From NCBI GenBank assembly GCA_017436225.1, contig JAFSDM010000025.1, positions 1-37,644 on the forward strand: a stretch of DNA of 37,644 bases. The letters run 5' to 3'. The notes under the pieces were generated by a model that worked only from the letters and a program-made list of their open reading frames with translations, searched no databases and was not told the origin of the DNA. Below, in pieces: positions 27,126 to 33,856 of this stretch. The number at the start of each line of letters is the position of its first letter. Positions within the stretch are counted from its first letter, which is position 1. Origin of the DNA: Clostridia bacterium. GTDB taxonomy: Bacteria; Bacillota; Clostridia; Oscillospirales; Acutalibacteraceae. The translations under genes were made by a program, and so were the position numbers.

Positions 27126-27154
27126 ATTATAAAGTTTATTGAAATTTTAGTCAA
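27126..27154 (-). promoter_or_regulatory. Promoter of the LUD-dacF unit
   Basis: On the reverse strand, TTGACT (27149-27154) and perfect TATAAT (27126-27131) with a 17-nt spacer. The -35 overlaps the stop codon of the metallophosphoesterase gene upstream. Confidence 0.7.
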
Positions 27155-27855
27155 TAGGAGTTTGAAATTTTTATTTTTAAAATTTCGGGTGGATTATTTA
27201 TTTTTGGAACAAGGTAAAGATTGCCAAGTCCGCGTGAAACCACAAGTCTTTTTTCGTAAACACCACTAGTATACTTAGGAAAGATGCCCTGACCCGGCGC
27301 ATAAATTCCCATCCCGAAAAATCGCCACTGACCACCGTGTGCATGACCCGAAAAGATTAAATCAATGGGTAAATCCTTAATATATTTAGGGTAATATTCG
27401 GGATGATGACAAAGCAATAGTTTGAATCCCTTAAGCTGACTAAATTCGGTTAAAAAATCAACATTGGGCTGATTTTGATTTTCAGGATAAAACCTACCGG
27501 AGGTAAGCCCACCTATACTTATACCCTTAAAGCTTACAAAATCATTATCCAAAAGGATTGTGCCGGTTTTTGAAATTCTTTTTCTTAAATCTCCCAAATA
27601 TCCTATTTCGTGATTGCCAAGAGAGCAAAAGGTAGGTAGCATTTTTGAAGCTGAGCTTAAAAATTCAAAACCCCTCTCACAAATAAAATTATTATGAATA
27701 AAATCCCCGCCAAGCAAAATGGCATCCACATCCATAGAAGAAATTGCATCTAAAATCGGACCGTTTGGGTAGTTGTGTAAGTCTGATACAAATGCAAAGC
27801 TAACATTCATTTTTTCTTTTGCAGAAAAAATATATTCATTTATGCTTAACTTCAT
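27151..27855 (-). CDS. Calcineurin-like metallophosphoesterase
   Basis: 234 residues with the complete dinuclear-metal set: FVSDLHN (D, H), LLGGDF, LGNHE, LCHHPEY and FSGHAHGGQ. The fold belongs to the YkuE/YaeI-like phosphoesterases, but the N-terminal membrane helix of those proteins is missing (it begins MKLSINEYIFSAKEK), so it is probably cytosolic. Its ATG overlaps the TGA of the MFS-GH2 fusion gene, so the two are translationally coupled. A role tied to sugar use, such as a phosphorylated product of the upstream enzyme, is possible but unproven. Confidence 0.9.
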   Translation of the reverse strand: MKLSINEYIFSAKEKMNVSFAFVSDLHNYPNGPILDAISSMDVDAILLGGDFIHNNFICERGFEFLSSASKMLPTFCSLGNHEIGYLGDLRKRISKTGTILLDNDFVSFKGISIGGLTSGRFYPENQNQPNVDFLTEFSQLKGFKLLLCHHPEYYPKYIKDLPIDLIFSGHAHGGQWRFFGMGIYAPGQGIFPKYTSGVYEKRLVVSRGLGNLYLVPKINNPPEILKIKISNSY

Positions 27856-30800
27856 TTTTCGCCCTCATTATTATGAATTTTATAGAATTCTTTATAAATC
27901 TCATCAAAAACAGGCTTTAAATCTGACTCTTTTAGCTTTTGCACCCTGCGGTCATAGGTTAAAATTCCGTTTGTTTCATCTTCCACATCACTAACCTGTG
28001 TTAAAACGGTAGCAGAAAGTCCTTTGCTTACGGCGGGTAAAATTTCATTTGAATATAGCTTTTTCACAGCCGATTTAAATGCTTCACTATCTTCAAATTT
28101 TTTGTAGCCGTAGGTTTTATCCAGGTTAAAGCTATGCTCCTTAATTTTATAAGAATAACCTCCAAATTCCGATAAAAACAGCACCTTTTCGGGACTTGGA
28201 GTAAGCTTTATTGGTTTAAAATAAACGTGCTCGCTTTGGAAATCACTCTTTCGAGGTCTGAACCAACCCGAAGCTGTATCGTAAAGTCTTGTGGGGTCAA
28301 GGCTTTTAAGCTCGTTATAAATACGCTCATCATCATACTGCCCCCAACCCTCGTTAAAAATGGTGTACTGCACCACCGAGGGGTGGTTATAAAGATGGTT
28401 TACCGTTTGCTTTGCGGCGGTTTCAAAAAAGTATTTTCTTTGCTTGGTGGCTTTATGGCGAATGCCTGATTTTAGCCCCACAGTTGGCAGAGCAGTATCA
28501 ATAAAAAAGCTGTATTTACCGCTGTTTACCATATCTTGAAAAACTGCCATACCGTATAAATCGCAGTAATAATAGAAAATCTGCGGCTCGATTTTAATGT
28601 GTTTTCTAAGCATATTAAAGCCGAGCTTTTTCATACTTAAAATGTCATTTTTATAGCCTTCGGGAGTGGCAGGAAGATAAATTCCGTCACTAAAATAGCC
28701 TTGGTCTAAAAGTCCGTTCCAAAAATACGGCTTGCCGTTAAGCGCCATATATGTGTACTTGCCGACCTTTTTGCTTTTCACAGTGCGAAGCGCAAAATAA
28801 GAGCTTATTTTATCCTCTCCCGAGGTTAAGGTGAAGTAATATAGGTAAGGATTTTCGGGAGTCCAATTTATTGGGTTTTCTATTTTCAAAGTAAATTCAT
28901 TACCCGAAAACTCTTTTGTTATTTTAGTATCTTTGGTTTCAATCTCTAAAGTTTTTGAGCTTTCGCCGCCATCTATTTTAAAGGTTACTTTATCAAGGTC
29001 GGCGGTGATTTTTAAATCCTTAATATATTTTTTCGGTCTTGCTTCAAGCCACACCGACTGCCATATTCCCGAAATTGGGGTGTACCACATACCGCCGCGA
29101 TTTATTCTTTGTTTGCCGTAGGGCAGCTCGCTATCGGTTTTGTCGGTTATTTGAACCAAAAGGTGATTTTTGCCCCAATTTAAAAGGTCGGTTATTTCAA
29201 ATTCGGCAGGTAAATATCCGCCTGAGTTTTTGCCTAAAATTTTGCCGTTTAGCTGTACCGTTGTATGAAGGTCTGCGGCATCAAAGGTTAAAAATACTCG
29301 TTTGTTTTTAAAATTTTCGGGTAAAGTAAAATCTCTTTCATAAACCAAGGTGTCGCCTTTTTTAAAGCTTTTACCCACTCCCGAAATTCTTGATTCAGGT
29401 GGAAAGGGCACCCTTATTTCTGATGAAAAAACATCCCCTTTTTTGCCCACTACCTTAAATTTCCATTTGCCGTTAAGGGATAAAAAATCTTGCCTTTTCA
29501 TTTGGGGGCGTGGGTGTTCGTTATATGGGATTTCGGGGAGATTTTCTTCAAACGCGGTGGTAAGTAAGACAGTTTTTGGATTTGATTTTTTTGCAAAAAC
29601 AACTACCAGAATTAAAACAATAACCGCCGCCGCTAAAGCCGCAAAGAATATGTTTTGATTTGGAACAAATGAAAAGGTGCCATCATTATTTTGCACCGTT
29701 TCGGCATTCGCTAAAACAGTTTTACCAATAAACGGACCTATAACGCCCGGAATTAAAACCTGTGCAAAAATTCTTATTCCCTGCAAACTGCCAACCTTTC
29801 CCTCGGGAGTGTTATCTCTTATAACTGCGCCGAAAACCGCCATGCCCGAAAGGTAGCCGCACATCATTAAAAGTGAGCCTATAAAAACTAAAGCGGTTGA
29901 TTTGAAAAGACCTAAAATTATAAAGCCTACAATAAGCCATAAAACAGCAATTACAGAAGATGTTTTAAAACCTTTTTTATCATAAAATCTGCCCCAAAAA
30001 GCAGTTACCACAGAAGCTATGATAATTGCAGGCGCCATTATTAAAACGTAATCTGCCATACCTAATGAAACTTCATAATAAAGAATTAGATAGGGCATAA
30101 AAATTTGAATTGCGATATTAAATATAACAAAAACTGCAAGCGGGAAATAAAGCGATTTGTTTTTTGCTACCGTTGAAGGCTTAAAGCCGTAAAAAATAGA
30201 ACTGAAATATCCTCCGCTTGATGCCTTTATATCAGGCTCCTTAATAATGAAAAAGCCTAATATGCCAACAAGCAAGGTTGCGGCACCGATTATAGCGAAA
30301 ATAATTGACCAATCTTTCGATTTTCCTAAATCGAACCCCATAAAACCGCCAAATACTGCCAATATCGCAACAAGCGGCATCATAGCGTTTATGCCTTCTG
30401 CCGCACCGCGATTTGTACTATCGGTGCTATCGGTAAGCCAAGCGTTAAAGGCGGCATCATTAGCGGTTGAGCCAAAGAAGGTCATAATACAGTCAAGCGC
30501 AATGGTAAGGCTTATTCCCACCGTAGCCGCCGAAACGGTTGCGGGAATAATTTTGTTTAAAATATCACTGCGGAGAAAAACAAAGCAGAAAATTGAAATT
30601 CCCCACAAAATATATCCGCCGCAGATAAACAGCTTTCTTTTGCCGATTTTATCGGACAGGGCGCCCATAAAAACGGTGGTTAGGGTTGCTGCAACTGCAC
30701 TTGCCGCCACCATTAGCGAAATATCGCCCGCCGAAGCGTTAAACATTTTATAAATGAAAACGTTGAAATACATATTTTCAACAACCCAGGCAATTTGACC

Positions 30801-30857
30801 CATAAGGCTGAAAATTGTAAGTGCCGCTAAAAATCTAGGCGAAAGTTTTGTTTTCAT
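27852..30857 (-). CDS. MFS transporter-GH2 glycoside hydrolase fusion protein
   Basis: 1001 residues in one uninterrupted frame. Residues 1-424 are an MFS domain with 12 hydrophobic helices, the loop GALSDKIGKRKLF (65-77) and NDAAFNAWLTD (133-143). A short linker (425-447) follows a positive KKSNPK. Residues 448-1001 are a GH2 enzyme: a sugar-binding jelly roll starting LNGKWKFKV, the family signature GMWYTPISGIWQSVWLE, an Ig-like domain, and a TIM barrel with acid/base Glu about 836 (FNEGWG) and nucleophile Glu about 897 (LSEFGG). Specificity within GH2 (galactoside, glucuronide, mannoside) is not evident. The start at 30857 follows AAGGGA. With 12 helices and a cytoplasmic N terminus, the hydrolase would be cytoplasmic, coupling uptake to cleavage. 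Confidence 0.9.
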   Translation of the reverse strand: MKTKLSPRFLAALTIFSLMGQIAWVVENMYFNVFIYKMFNASAGDISLMVAASAVAATLTTVFMGALSDKIGKRKLFICGGYILWGISIFCFVFLRSDILNKIIPATVSAATVGISLTIALDCIMTFFGSTANDAAFNAWLTDSTDSTNRGAAEGINAMMPLVAILAVFGGFMGFDLGKSKDWSIIFAIIGAATLLVGILGFFIIKEPDIKASSGGYFSSIFYGFKPSTVAKNKSLYFPLAVFVIFNIAIQIFMPYLILYYEVSLGMADYVLIMAPAIIIASVVTAFWGRFYDKKGFKTSSVIAVLWLIVGFIILGLFKSTALVFIGSLLMMCGYLSGMAVFGAVIRDNTPEGKVGSLQGIRIFAQVLIPGVIGPFIGKTVLANAETVQNNDGTFSFVPNQNIFFAALAAAVIVLILVVVFAKKSNPKTVLLTTAFEENLPEIPYNEHPRPQMKRQDFLSLNGKWKFKVVGKKGDVFSSEIRVPFPPESRISGVGKSFKKGDTLVYERDFTLPENFKNKRVFLTFDAADLHTTVQLNGKILGKNSGGYLPAEFEITDLLNWGKNHLLVQITDKTDSELPYGKQRINRGGMWYTPISGIWQSVWLEARPKKYIKDLKITADLDKVTFKIDGGESSKTLEIETKDTKITKEFSGNEFTLKIENPINWTPENPYLYYFTLTSGEDKISSYFALRTVKSKKVGKYTYMALNGKPYFWNGLLDQGYFSDGIYLPATPEGYKNDILSMKKLGFNMLRKHIKIEPQIFYYYCDLYGMAVFQDMVNSGKYSFFIDTALPTVGLKSGIRHKATKQRKYFFETAAKQTVNHLYNHPSVVQYTIFNEGWGQYDDERIYNELKSLDPTRLYDTASGWFRPRKSDFQSEHVYFKPIKLTPSPEKVLFLSEFGGYSYKIKEHSFNLDKTYGYKKFEDSEAFKSAVKKLYSNEILPAVSKGLSATVLTQVSDVEDETNGILTYDRRVQKLKESDLKPVFDEIYKEFYKIHNNEGEK

Positions 30858-30888
30858 AACGCACCATCCCTTGTGTAAATATACTTTA

Positions 30889-30917
30889 ATTATAATATTT
30901 AAAGTCGCATCGGTCAA
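30889..30917 (-). promoter_or_regulatory. Promoter of the MFS-GH2 fusion gene
   Basis: On the reverse strand, TTGACC (30912-30917) and perfect TATAAT (30889-30894) with a 17-nt spacer. I see no clear operator or CcpA-type cre site in the short leader. Confidence 0.72.
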
Positions 30918-31059: not shown

Positions 31060-32865
31060 TTGGCTATTCCACAAGACCATATAAGAAATTTTTGCATTAT
31101 TGCACATATTGACCACGGAAAATCCACCCTTGCCGACCGCCTTTTAGAGCTTACTGAGTCGGTTACTCAAAGGGAAATGGAAGACCAGCTTTTAGACAGT
31201 ATGGATTTAGAAAGGGAACGCGGCATTACCATTAAAGCCCACGCTGTTACCCTTTATTACAAGGCAAAAAATGGCGAAGAATATGAATTTAACCTTATTG
31301 ACACTCCCGGTCACGTTGACTTTAACTACGAGGTTTCCAGATCTCTTGCCGCTTGTGAGGGCGCCGTTTTGGTTGTTGATGCTTCTCAGGGAATTGAGGC
31401 GCAAACCCTTGCCAACACCTACCTTGCGGTTGACCACAATCTAGAGCTTTTGCCGGTTATAAATAAAATTGACCTTCCCAGTGCCGACCCCGACCGAGTT
31501 GTTGCTGAGATTGAAGATATTATTGGTATTCCTGCCGATGAAGCGCCACGTGTTTCAGCAAAAACGGGCGAAAACATTGGCGAGATTTTAGAAAAGCTTA
31601 TAACCGAAATCCCTGCCCCTACAGGCGACTCCAGCGAGCCGCTCAAGGCACTCATTTTTGACTCTTACTATGACCCCTACAAAGGCGTTATTGTTTATTT
31701 CAGAGTTGTTTCGGGTGAGATTAAAACCGGTCAGGTAATTAAGATGATGGCAAGCGGCGCAGAGTTTACCACCGTTGAAGTGGGCAGAAAAATGGCTACC
31801 GCTATGGTGCCCTGCGACTGTCTTAAAGCAGGTGAAGTTGGCTACCTTGCGGCATCTATTAAAACTGTTGGCGATGCCAGAGTCGGTGATACCATCACCT
31901 GTGCTGAAAATCCCGCAGCCGAGCCGCTTGAAGGCTACCGCAAGGTTAACCCTGTTGTTTTTTGCGGTATTTACCCCGCCGATGGCGCTCACTATTCCGA
32001 CCTTAGAGAAGCGCTTGAAAAGCTTCAACTTAACGATGCCTCGCTTCTTTTTGAAGCCGAAACCTCACAGGCCTTAGGCTTTGGTTTCCGTTGCGGCTTT
32101 TTGGGACTTCTGCATATGGAGATTATTCAAGAACGTCTTGAGAGAGAATATAACATTGACCTTGTTACCACCGCTCCAAGCGTTGTTTATAAATTTGAGC
32201 TTACAAACGGCGAGGTGGTTAGCGTGGATAACCCCACAAACTACCCCGACCCCGCAACAATAGCTTCGGCTATGGAGCCTGTTGCCGACGTTCACATTTT
32301 CTCCCCCCGTGATTATATTGGCGATATTATGGGTCTTTGCCAAGAGCGCAGAGGCGAATATCAGGATACAAAATATATGGGTGACCGCGTAGATTTGCAT
32401 TACGTTATGCCTATTGGCGAAATTGTCTACGACTTTTTTGATGCTCTTAAATCCCGTACTCGTGGCTACGCAAGCTACGACTACGAAACCAAGGGCTACC
32501 AAAAATCAAAGCTGGTTAAGCTTGACGTTATGCTTGCGGGAGATGTTGTAGATGCGCTTTCATTTATTGTTCACTCGGACAACGCCTATGCAAGAGCCAG
32601 AAGAATTGCCGAAAAATTAAAAGAGTTTATTCCGCGTCAGCTTTTTGAAGTGCCCGTTCAGGTGGCAATCGGCGGTAAGATTATTGCCCGAGAAACCGTT
32701 AAGGCTATGCGCAAGGACGTTTTAGCAAAGTGCTACGGCGGTGATATAACCAGAAAGAAAAAACTTCTTGAAAAGCAAAAAGAAGGTAAAAAACGTATGC
32801 GCCAGTTAGGCTCTGTTGAAGTGCCGCAAGAAGCCTTTATGGCGGTTCTTAAACTCGATGAATAG
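31060..32865 (+). CDS. lepA: Elongation factor 4 (LepA) GTPase
   Basis: 601 residues. It is a ribosome-associated translational GTPase thought to back-translocate or aid ribosome assembly. GTPase motifs are AHIDHGKST (15-23), DTPGHVDF and NKIDLP, followed by EF-G-like domains and the LepA-specific C-terminal tail ([37 protein letters not shown]). The start is a TTG at 31060 placed 9 nt after TAGGAG; the nearby ATG at 31053 is in another frame. The last codons overlap apbE by 8 nt. Confidence 0.97.
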
Positions 32866-33856
32866 AAGAAAATCTATAATTTATGCATCTATTTTCGTCT
32901 TGCTTTTGGCGGTGATGCTGTCATCTGCCGCTACGCTTAAGGGGTGCTTTTCAAAAACCTTATCCCGCACATTTTTTGCGGCGGACACGGTATGCACCAT
33001 AACCCTTTATGACGGAAACGAAGATGCTTTAGATGGCGCGGTGGAGCTTGTAACGACTCTTGCGAATAGGCTGAGCTGTAAGGATGAAGCTTCTGAGCTT
33101 AATAAACTTAATACTGAAAGCTCTGCTTTATCCCCCTCTTCCGAGTTGTTAGACGTTATTCAAAAAGGGGTATATTTTTCCAATATAAGTAACGGTGTTT
33201 TTGATATTACGGTAAAGCCGCTCAGTGATTTATGGGATTTTAAAAATGCAAAAATCCCAAGCAATGCAGAAATTTTATCGGCTACCAAAAAAATTGATTT
33301 TAAAAACATTAAAATTCAAAATGGTTCGGTTTCCCTTGAAAACGGCGCTAAAATAGATTTAGGCGGTATCGCAAAAGGGTATATAGCTGATAAAATTAGC
33401 GATTTTCTATTAAAAAACGGCGTAAAATCAGCAATTATTAACCTTGGCGGTAATGTTACGGTTGTTGGCAAAAATAAGGGTGAAAAATTTAATATCGGTA
33501 TTCAAAAGCCGTTTGAGGATGGAACCGCCGCCCTTATTTCCTGCTCTGACACCTCGGTTGTAACAAGCGGAATTTATCAGCGTTATTTTGAAGAGAATGG
33601 CAAAATTTACCATCACCTTTTAAACACAAAAACAGGTTACCCCGAACAAAACTCTCTTTATTCGGTAACAATAATTTCACCTTCTGCCACCGCTGCAGAT
33701 GCTCTTTCCACCCTTTGCTTTTTAAAGGGGCTAAAGGAGGGCTTAGCCTTTATTGAGCAAACCCCGAACACCGAAGCAGTATTTATTGACCAAAACCAAA
33801 AGCTGCATTTATCAACGGGACTTAAAATGAATAATAATTTAATAGAAATAAAATAA
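32858..33856 (+). CDS. apbE: FAD:protein FMN transferase (ApbE)
   Basis: 332 residues. It attaches FMN to Thr/Ser of flavoprotein targets such as NQR/RNF subunits. An N-terminal hydrophobic stretch (about 5-26) with a downstream Cys in TLKGC suggests export, perhaps as a lipoprotein, though the residue before Gly is unusual for a lipobox. ApbE marks are [43 protein letters not shown] and the Mg-binding [12 protein letters not shown]. The ATG at 32858 overlaps the lepA end. No RNF or NQR gene is in the window, so its target lies elsewhere. Confidence 0.92.

Follow-up and report, generated by a model that had tools for sequence, protein, structure and literature searches.

In the MelB/MelA and LacY/LacZ operons, an intact glycoside is imported, and a partner enzyme then cleaves it in the cytoplasm. 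There the two activities reside in two proteins, the substrates are pyranosides, and the transporters belong to other families than the one considered here. A closer parallel in organization is LplT-Aas, described as an MFS transporter with an enzyme at the cytoplasmic side that processes its substrate; the two genes are adjacent in many bacteria and apparently form one open reading frame (ORF) in some (PMC11416262). The present locus lies in a 37,644-nucleotide stretch of DNA from a gut bacterium of the Acutalibacteraceae (Clostridia bacterium, contig JAFSDM010000025.1, positions 1 to 37,644, hereafter called the window), in which a single gene joins an MFS transporter to a GH2 glycoside hydrolase. 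Together with its relatives, it shows the same arrangement, namely an MFS transporter and a predicted cytoplasmic enzyme encoded by adjacent genes or by one ORF. LplT-Aas differs in that its substrate is a lipid, its enzyme is an acyltransferase rather than a glycosidase, and its hosts are Gram-negative bacteria (PMC11416262); it may be regarded as the closest precedent, by organization only and with no homology claimed. A fusion of MFS and GH2 was not found described in the titles and abstract openings of the open-access papers that the literature searches listed, and the main text of a study dealing with GH2 (Lebreton et al., 2025, PMC12243196) does not contain the words “transporter,” “MFS,” or “fusion.” The transporter-glycosidase fusion is real and widespread, and no earlier description of it was found.

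We favor the view, at a probability of roughly 0.55, that the protein acts as a single unit for the import and hydrolysis of a small furanoside, with β-D-galactofuranoside as the first choice. The MFS half is probably a symporter coupled to a cation and would bring the small intact glycoside across the membrane, and the GH2 half, held on a short linker at the cytoplasmic side, would cleave it by a two-glutamate retaining mechanism. The substrate would most likely be a furanoside, because the enzyme falls in the furanosidase branch of GH2. Free galactofuranose converts to the pyranose form, and it could then enter the Leloir pathway, for which galactokinase-like and GalT genes are present in the genome. 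Tethering may offer a fixed 1:1 ratio of the two activities and local capture of the substrate. The computational evidence covers the fusion itself, its topology, the conserved catalytic residues, the GH2 branch, and the co-occurrence of the two halves; import, the identity of the substrate, galactose entry into the Leloir pathway, and any gain from tethering are inferences.

A transporter and a glycosidase in one polypeptide

The gene and the parts of its product are as follows.

27852..30857, minus strand: MFS-GH2 fusion gene (1001 amino acids from the likely start ATG at 30857, stop included)
29586..30857, minus strand: MFS transporter part, residues 1-424 (Pfam MFS_1 at 30-375; hydropathy and charge over 54 proteins suggest 12 helices and cytoplasmic ends)
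29523..29585, minus strand: linker, residues 425-445, where split relatives have a stop codon and the GH2 start
29034..29354, minus strand: GH2 sugar-binding domain, residues 502-608 (Pfam PF02837, Glyco_hydro_2_N)
28785..28994, minus strand: GH2 central domain, residues 622-691 (Pfam PF00703, Glyco_hydro_2)
27915..28652, minus strand: GH2 TIM barrel, from residue 736 to roughly 981 (PF02836, Glyco_hydro_2_C, at 736-861; alignment to PDB 9j6n reaches 980)
28350..28352, minus strand: codon of E836, predicted acid/base, in NEGWG (aligned to NEGWGQYD of 9j6n)
28167..28169, minus strand: codon of E897, predicted nucleophile, in SEFGG (aligned to GEFGG of 9j6n)
27999..28001, minus strand: codon of T953, possibly the Thr that replaces a Trp of the -1 subsite in group III of GH2 (discussed below)

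The surrounding open frame extends over 27852..30917 on the minus strand, and neither a stop nor a frameshift interrupts the junction of the two halves. All four families (MFS_1, PF02837, PF00703, and PF02836) exceed the Pfam gathering score in the fusion protein, with PF07690 (MFS_1) reaching 110.9 bits against a cut-off of 33.4. Besides this match, the first half is read as having 12 helices and, between helices 2 and 3, has the loop ALSDKIGKRK, which resembles the MFS “motif A.” The second half has the three GH2 domains together with the predicted nucleophile Glu and an NE motif that holds the predicted acid/base Glu; N835, E836, and E897 are invariant in 69/69 aligned rows. T953 is a Thr in 53 of 54 rows and aligns to a Thr of 9j6n, and may be the group III residue. 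Near the junction, the first in-frame ATG is M453, and an internal start that would release a free GH2 enzyme in the window was rejected on this ground.

Mean hydropathy over the 54 fusion proteins gave 14 peaks, of which the weak ones at 101 and 266 were taken as shoulders, leaving 12 helices. On this reading, Lys and Arg in the loops sum to 21.7 on the inside (16.4 without the C-terminal stretch) versus 2.6 on the outside. Furthermore, 26 of 28 separate GH2 ORFs from related loci have no hydrophobic stretch upstream of the PRP motif (15-residue mean hydropathy below 0.6); the exceptions are L140, which reaches 0.96, and L135, which reaches 2.35 and perhaps has an overlong ORF start. Because the inside loops are rich in Lys and Arg and the separate GH2 relatives mostly lack hydrophobic N-termini, the GH2 half and both ends of the MFS half are predicted to be cytoplasmic. 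A GH2 domain outside the cell is not favored by charge, hydropathy, or these N-termini. The original prediction, which had described a single polypeptide with both catalytic glutamates and a hydrolase in the cytoplasm, was thus upheld in its structural outline.

Fused, adjacent, and separate forms

Contigs of one genome per species were searched for relatives, 536 of which were found; the best 80 were analyzed, and a locus was called fused where a single ORF, unbroken over 900 amino acids or more, covered both halves. A fused ORF is present in 68 of the 80 best loci, including those of the named strains [Clostridium] fimetarium DSM 9179 and Bacterium D16-50, although the search favors single-frame matches, which biases the proportion of fused and split loci. 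Eight others carry a stop at the junction (L052, L062, L063, L077, L081, L084, L094, and L095), with the ATG of GH2 following in the same frame 0-9 nucleotides after that stop. The remaining four run off their contigs (L074, L092) or are broken by a frameshift (L093) or an early stop (L061); in the last of these (L061:1449-4382), an in-frame TGA stands at residue 136, where relatives nearly always have Trp; it may reflect a sequence error, a pseudogene, or recoding. Among eight genomes of the genus, four, the window's own included, match the fusion at full length, a fifth (G004) matches over residues 1-300 next to the end of a contig, and the other three match GH2 stretches only. In nine fused relatives, the MFS half is better conserved than the GH2 half (67-74% versus 53-57% identity).

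In a further search, 150 genomes of the window's family were queried with the MFS half alone (E up to 1e-50) and the GH2 half alone (E up to 1e-80), which matched 46 and 54 genomes, respectively. Every one of the 46 MFS genomes also has GH2, eight genomes have GH2 only, and none has MFS only; Fisher tests of this co-occurrence ignore relatedness. The two genes are fused in seven of the 46 (G128, one of these, is cut by a contig end), adjacent in seven, and apart in 32, so that the co-occurrence is still 32/32 once the fused and adjacent genomes are set aside. Genes that are apart mostly lie on different contigs of draft assemblies, while in G104 they are about 690 kb from each other on one contig. 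In the seven adjacent pairs, the frame of GH2 differs from that of MFS, often with an overlap, and joining there would need more than the loss of a stop. At least 25 of 391 genomes of the class have a match at 1e-100 or better, and at least 2 of 299 in a sample of the phylum, own genome included; both counts are lower bounds, with at most two candidates scored per listed genome. Forty regions were taken from the hits of the family and class searches. The original prediction did not say how common the fusion is, and these figures (68 of the 80 best loci, 7 of 150 family genomes) provide part of an answer. Because the two parts occur fused, adjacent, or distant and are found together in all MFS genomes of the family, it is very likely that transporter and enzyme are functionally linked and work together, as had been proposed.

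The history of the fusion was examined with two trees built by a quick method, one of GH2 (101 rows: 72 fused, 15 adjacent, and 14 apart) and one of MFS (95 rows). Rows with an internal stop (L061), cut or broken rows (L074, L092, L093, and L094), and duplicates (L127, L129, L130, L145, L146, and L148, plus L149, which was treated as a copy of L095) were left out, and the same-genus loci L001-L030 lie outside the trees. The fused-versus-adjacent label changes six times on the GH2 tree and seven times on the MFS tree, with four and three changes, respectively, forced by well supported branches; such counts do not separate gain from loss. On the GH2 tree, 57 of 60 rows are fused in one large clade (support 88), and eight Oscillospiraceae fusions, Oscillibacter among them, form a separate clade (support 100) that groups with unlinked relatives. 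Because the split locus L052 is nested in a well supported clade of 45 rows, 42 of them fused, and because the Oscillospiraceae fusions stand beside unlinked relatives, both joining and parting of the genes have probably happened. The two trees agree in their main groups, with a patristic correlation of 0.79 without control for shared ancestry. Three MFS genes (L118:1983-3263, L122:3373-4428, and L123:3795-5162) have no attached GH2, and their genomes encode GH2 on other contigs; on one reading, the attached half was lost and the other copy is used. A fusion from a metagenome-assembled genome (MAG) labeled Treponemataceae (L086:5974-9150) stands among Lachnospiraceae rows on both trees, which may reflect gene transfer or a mis-binned contig.

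These data bear on what the covalent link contributes. A tentative alternative, to which we give well under an even chance, is that the two halves share a pathway and the link itself is near-neutral, the genes repeatedly joining and parting while the enzyme is merely anchored at the membrane and receives no substrate directly from the transporter. The eight same-frame pairs separated by 0-9 nucleotides, the label changes on both trees, and the 32 of 46 genomes with the genes apart all fit this alternative, but the fusion has been kept in the large clade and in the Oscillospiraceae clade, and it is thus at least not disfavored. Direct hand-over of the substrate to the active site is possible for the import-and-hydrolysis unit, though many relatives lack the covalent link. 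As a more speculative extension, doubtful at present, the fusion may serve vectorial hydrolysis in gut Clostridia, in which the membrane half would pass a galactofuranoside, or some other furanoside from microbes or plants, directly to the tethered furanosidase by a private, loss-free route. If so, it would be the first transporter-glycosidase fusion known to us and would show GH2 furanosidases in a dedicated cytoplasmic role. The three forms (fused, adjacent, and unlinked) also tie an uncharacterized MFS family to a furanose-acting branch of enzymes, so that both halves gain a function open to testing across numerous uncultured bacteria of the gut. Between some relatives, the main difference is a stop codon that separates the two parts, which makes them a natural test bed for whether joining a transporter to its enzyme brings a benefit.

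Enzyme branch and candidate substrates

The best PDB relatives of the GH2 half are a β-D-galactofuranosidase (9j6n, 7e-99; 9j6m, 1e-98), an untyped GH2 protein (7sf2, 2e-98), and 7xyr (4e-53); these are the only four distinct sequences below 1e-40, and the next best match to the whole protein stands at 1e-24. To our knowledge, no activity has been reported for 7SF2, a stand-alone protein that is as close to the enzyme half as the galactofuranosidase and is also the solved protein nearest to L139, an unlinked relative (E 6e-164). Lebreton et al. placed 9J6M in GH2_18 and 7XYR in GH2_19, which jointly form “group III,” and described β-D-galactofuranosidase and α-L-arabinofuranosidase activities as specific to this group, in which a Thr replaces the Trp of the -1 subsite (Lebreton et al., 2025, PMC12243196). 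In the same analysis, from which proteins with transmembrane domains were filtered out, about 80% of GH2_18 and about 10% of GH2_19 members were predicted to be secreted (PMC12243196). The GH2 half is nearer to group III (GH2_18/GH2_19) than to other GH2 enzymes, 7sf2 itself being untyped; by sequence, it is a member of this furanosidase branch and is nearer to the solved GH2_18 enzyme. A LacZ- or GusA-type activity is not favored, such relatives being far weaker.

The closest named relative is the β-D-galactofuranosidase of Streptomyces sp. JHA19 (GH2_18, 9J6M/9J6N), with which the fusion has the LDQGY, RKHIK, NEGWGQ, EFGG, and DVExExNG blocks in common. Unlike the fusion, the Streptomyces enzyme has no attached transporter, and GH2_18 enzymes are mostly predicted to be secreted, whereas the enzyme half here is predicted to be cytoplasmic. 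GH2_19, represented by 7XYR (labeled as a β-glucuronidase), is the sister subfamily and mostly lacks secretion signals; 7XYR is more distant from the fusion and is described as lacking the NE motif (PMC12243196), which is intact in the fusion. A stand-alone GH2_19-like enzyme is found elsewhere in the genus (L010).

The genome evidence on the substrate is less direct. In the window's own genome, two genes have galactokinase models as best hits, at scores below the cut-off, and a GalT exceeds one subfamily cut-off; no match to AraA (L-arabinose isomerase) was seen in this assembly, which is 87.8% complete. Across loci L031-L150, some of them duplicates, a galactokinase gene adjoins the gene in 3 of 120: L084, L132 (partial, at a contig end), and L037 (on the opposite strand). 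The corresponding Poisson value of 0.0009 is post hoc and assumes one galK per 2 Mb. In L084, a GH1-like gene is followed by a GH36 α-galactosidase, a GPH-family symporter, MFS, GH2, a galactokinase (over the cut-off), and a gene that starts like a sugar kinase. Overall, this evidence is suggestive only, and weakly so, of a preference for galactose over arabinose. Galactofuranose has been tied to non-mammalian species (PMC11084152); were it the substrate, the fusion would point to gut bacteria that feed on glycans of other microbes or of fungi.

Several observations weigh against an import unit for galactofuranosides. When 24 genomes carrying the genes fused or side by side are compared with 14 control genomes, the galK model matches 23 carriers (5 over the cut-off) but also 12 controls (8 over the cut-off), and sub-cut-off galK matches are non-diagnostic because the controls match too. 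AraA is present in 6/24 carriers (4 at E below 1e-60) versus 5/14 controls, and GalT2, the one GalT type searched, in 9/24 carriers. No conserved operon emerged from 83 loci, 60 of which have same-strand neighbors; in a Pfam scan of 94 of the 148 listed neighbors, the commonest family, PfkB, accounted for 5 of the 94. Two loci (L034 and L090) adjoin uronate-type genes. Group III also contains α-L-arabinofuranosidases (PMC12243196), and the cytoplasmic location is more GH2_19-like than GH2_18-like, though the sequence is nearer to 9J6N. For the MFS half, no close solved structure was found, with no match by single sequence and one at E 0.005 by profile. Finally, the trees conflict in places: the MFS genes L118, L122, and L123 belong to the mostly fused clade, but their genomes' GH2 genes (L119, L121, and L124) belong to a clade of adjacent genes. 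Since neighborhoods are not conserved and two of them contain uronate-type genes, the substrate assignment may be regarded as a reasoned guess.

Arabinose-containing glycosides represent another option. Here the protein would import and cut α-L-arabinofuranosides, such as arabinan or arabinoxylan fragments, with L-arabinose as the product. This option is rather unlikely: α-L-arabinofuranosidases do occur in group III (PMC12243196) and the record titles of many relatives name the herbivore gut, but the isomerase is confined to a quarter of the carriers and has no match in the own genome, in a test that covers the isomerase only and an assembly that is incomplete.

The direction of transport was considered as well. 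The MFS half has weak matches to drug-efflux models, far below the cut-off, and equally weak matches to models of metabolite/H+ symporters, lactate transporters, and MFS_2 sugar transporters. It falls short of the GPH (MFS_2) family model PF13347 (17.1 bits for the window protein against a cut-off of 27, which the relative L067 barely reaches at 27.1). That the MFS half exports the hydrolysis product or aglycone, with the GH2 substrate entering by another route, is improbable: the drug-efflux matches could be read in this way, but the symporter and sugar-transport models are matched no worse, and no other transporter is conserved beside the gene among the neighbors scanned.

Some neighborhoods contain further glycosidase genes. 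The genes of L084 (847-11067) make up a compact operon of galactoside type in a MAG from horse feces. The gene immediately upstream of the fusion in L041 (2132-5889) encodes a second GH2, of a different type (with DUF4982), and follows an MFS_2 symporter gene; a closely similar GH2 stretch is found in L053 (3-1241).

Assembly, start signals, and neighboring genes

An assembly or gene-calling artefact is barely credible: the genome is a fragmented draft of 47 contigs, but the same fused ORF recurs in the 68 loci of other records, named strains included, and same-genus orthologues with 72-77% identity span both halves in one frame, which refutes an assembly artefact. The original prediction had named two signs of such an artefact, namely an interruption between the domains, which is absent from the window junction and from the fused orthologues, and separate genes in related genomes. 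The latter were indeed found, but they are read as functional pairing.

Three further features flank or overlap the fusion gene.

30864..30872, minus strand: likely ribosome-binding site AAGGGATGG, picked by eye, ending 6 nucleotides upstream of the ATG at 30857
30889..30917, minus strand: promoter-like TTGACC-17-TATAAT upstream of the fusion, a consensus match only
27151..27855, minus strand: calcineurin-like phosphoesterase (Pfam), overlapping the fusion stop; not counted as part of the system

The promoter-like site matches the consensus at 11 of 12 positions, which is weak evidence, as the region has 18 such sites versus 12.5 ± 3.8 in shuffled sequences.

The ATG of the phosphoesterase gene overlaps the stop codon of the fusion (ATGA), and the translational coupling that had been proposed is plausible in the window. 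The further suggestion that the phosphoesterase acts on the hydrolysis product was not supported, as the gene adjoins the fusion in same-genus loci only among the loci compared. Among these, tblastn matches were limited to L001, L003, L004, L031, L032, and L012, of which L031 and L032 were taken as the same records as L003 and L004 (equal identities); in G004 (L012), the gene is on another contig than the cut fusion. It was not seen in the examined stretches of G002 (L005) and L066. As a general pathway partner, the phosphoesterase was therefore rejected; it is a neighbor at the genus level and probably irrelevant to the system. Elsewhere in the window (32816-33856), an ApbE-like ORF, listed with a TTG start, shares 50 nucleotides with the end of lepA, and its true start may be further in.

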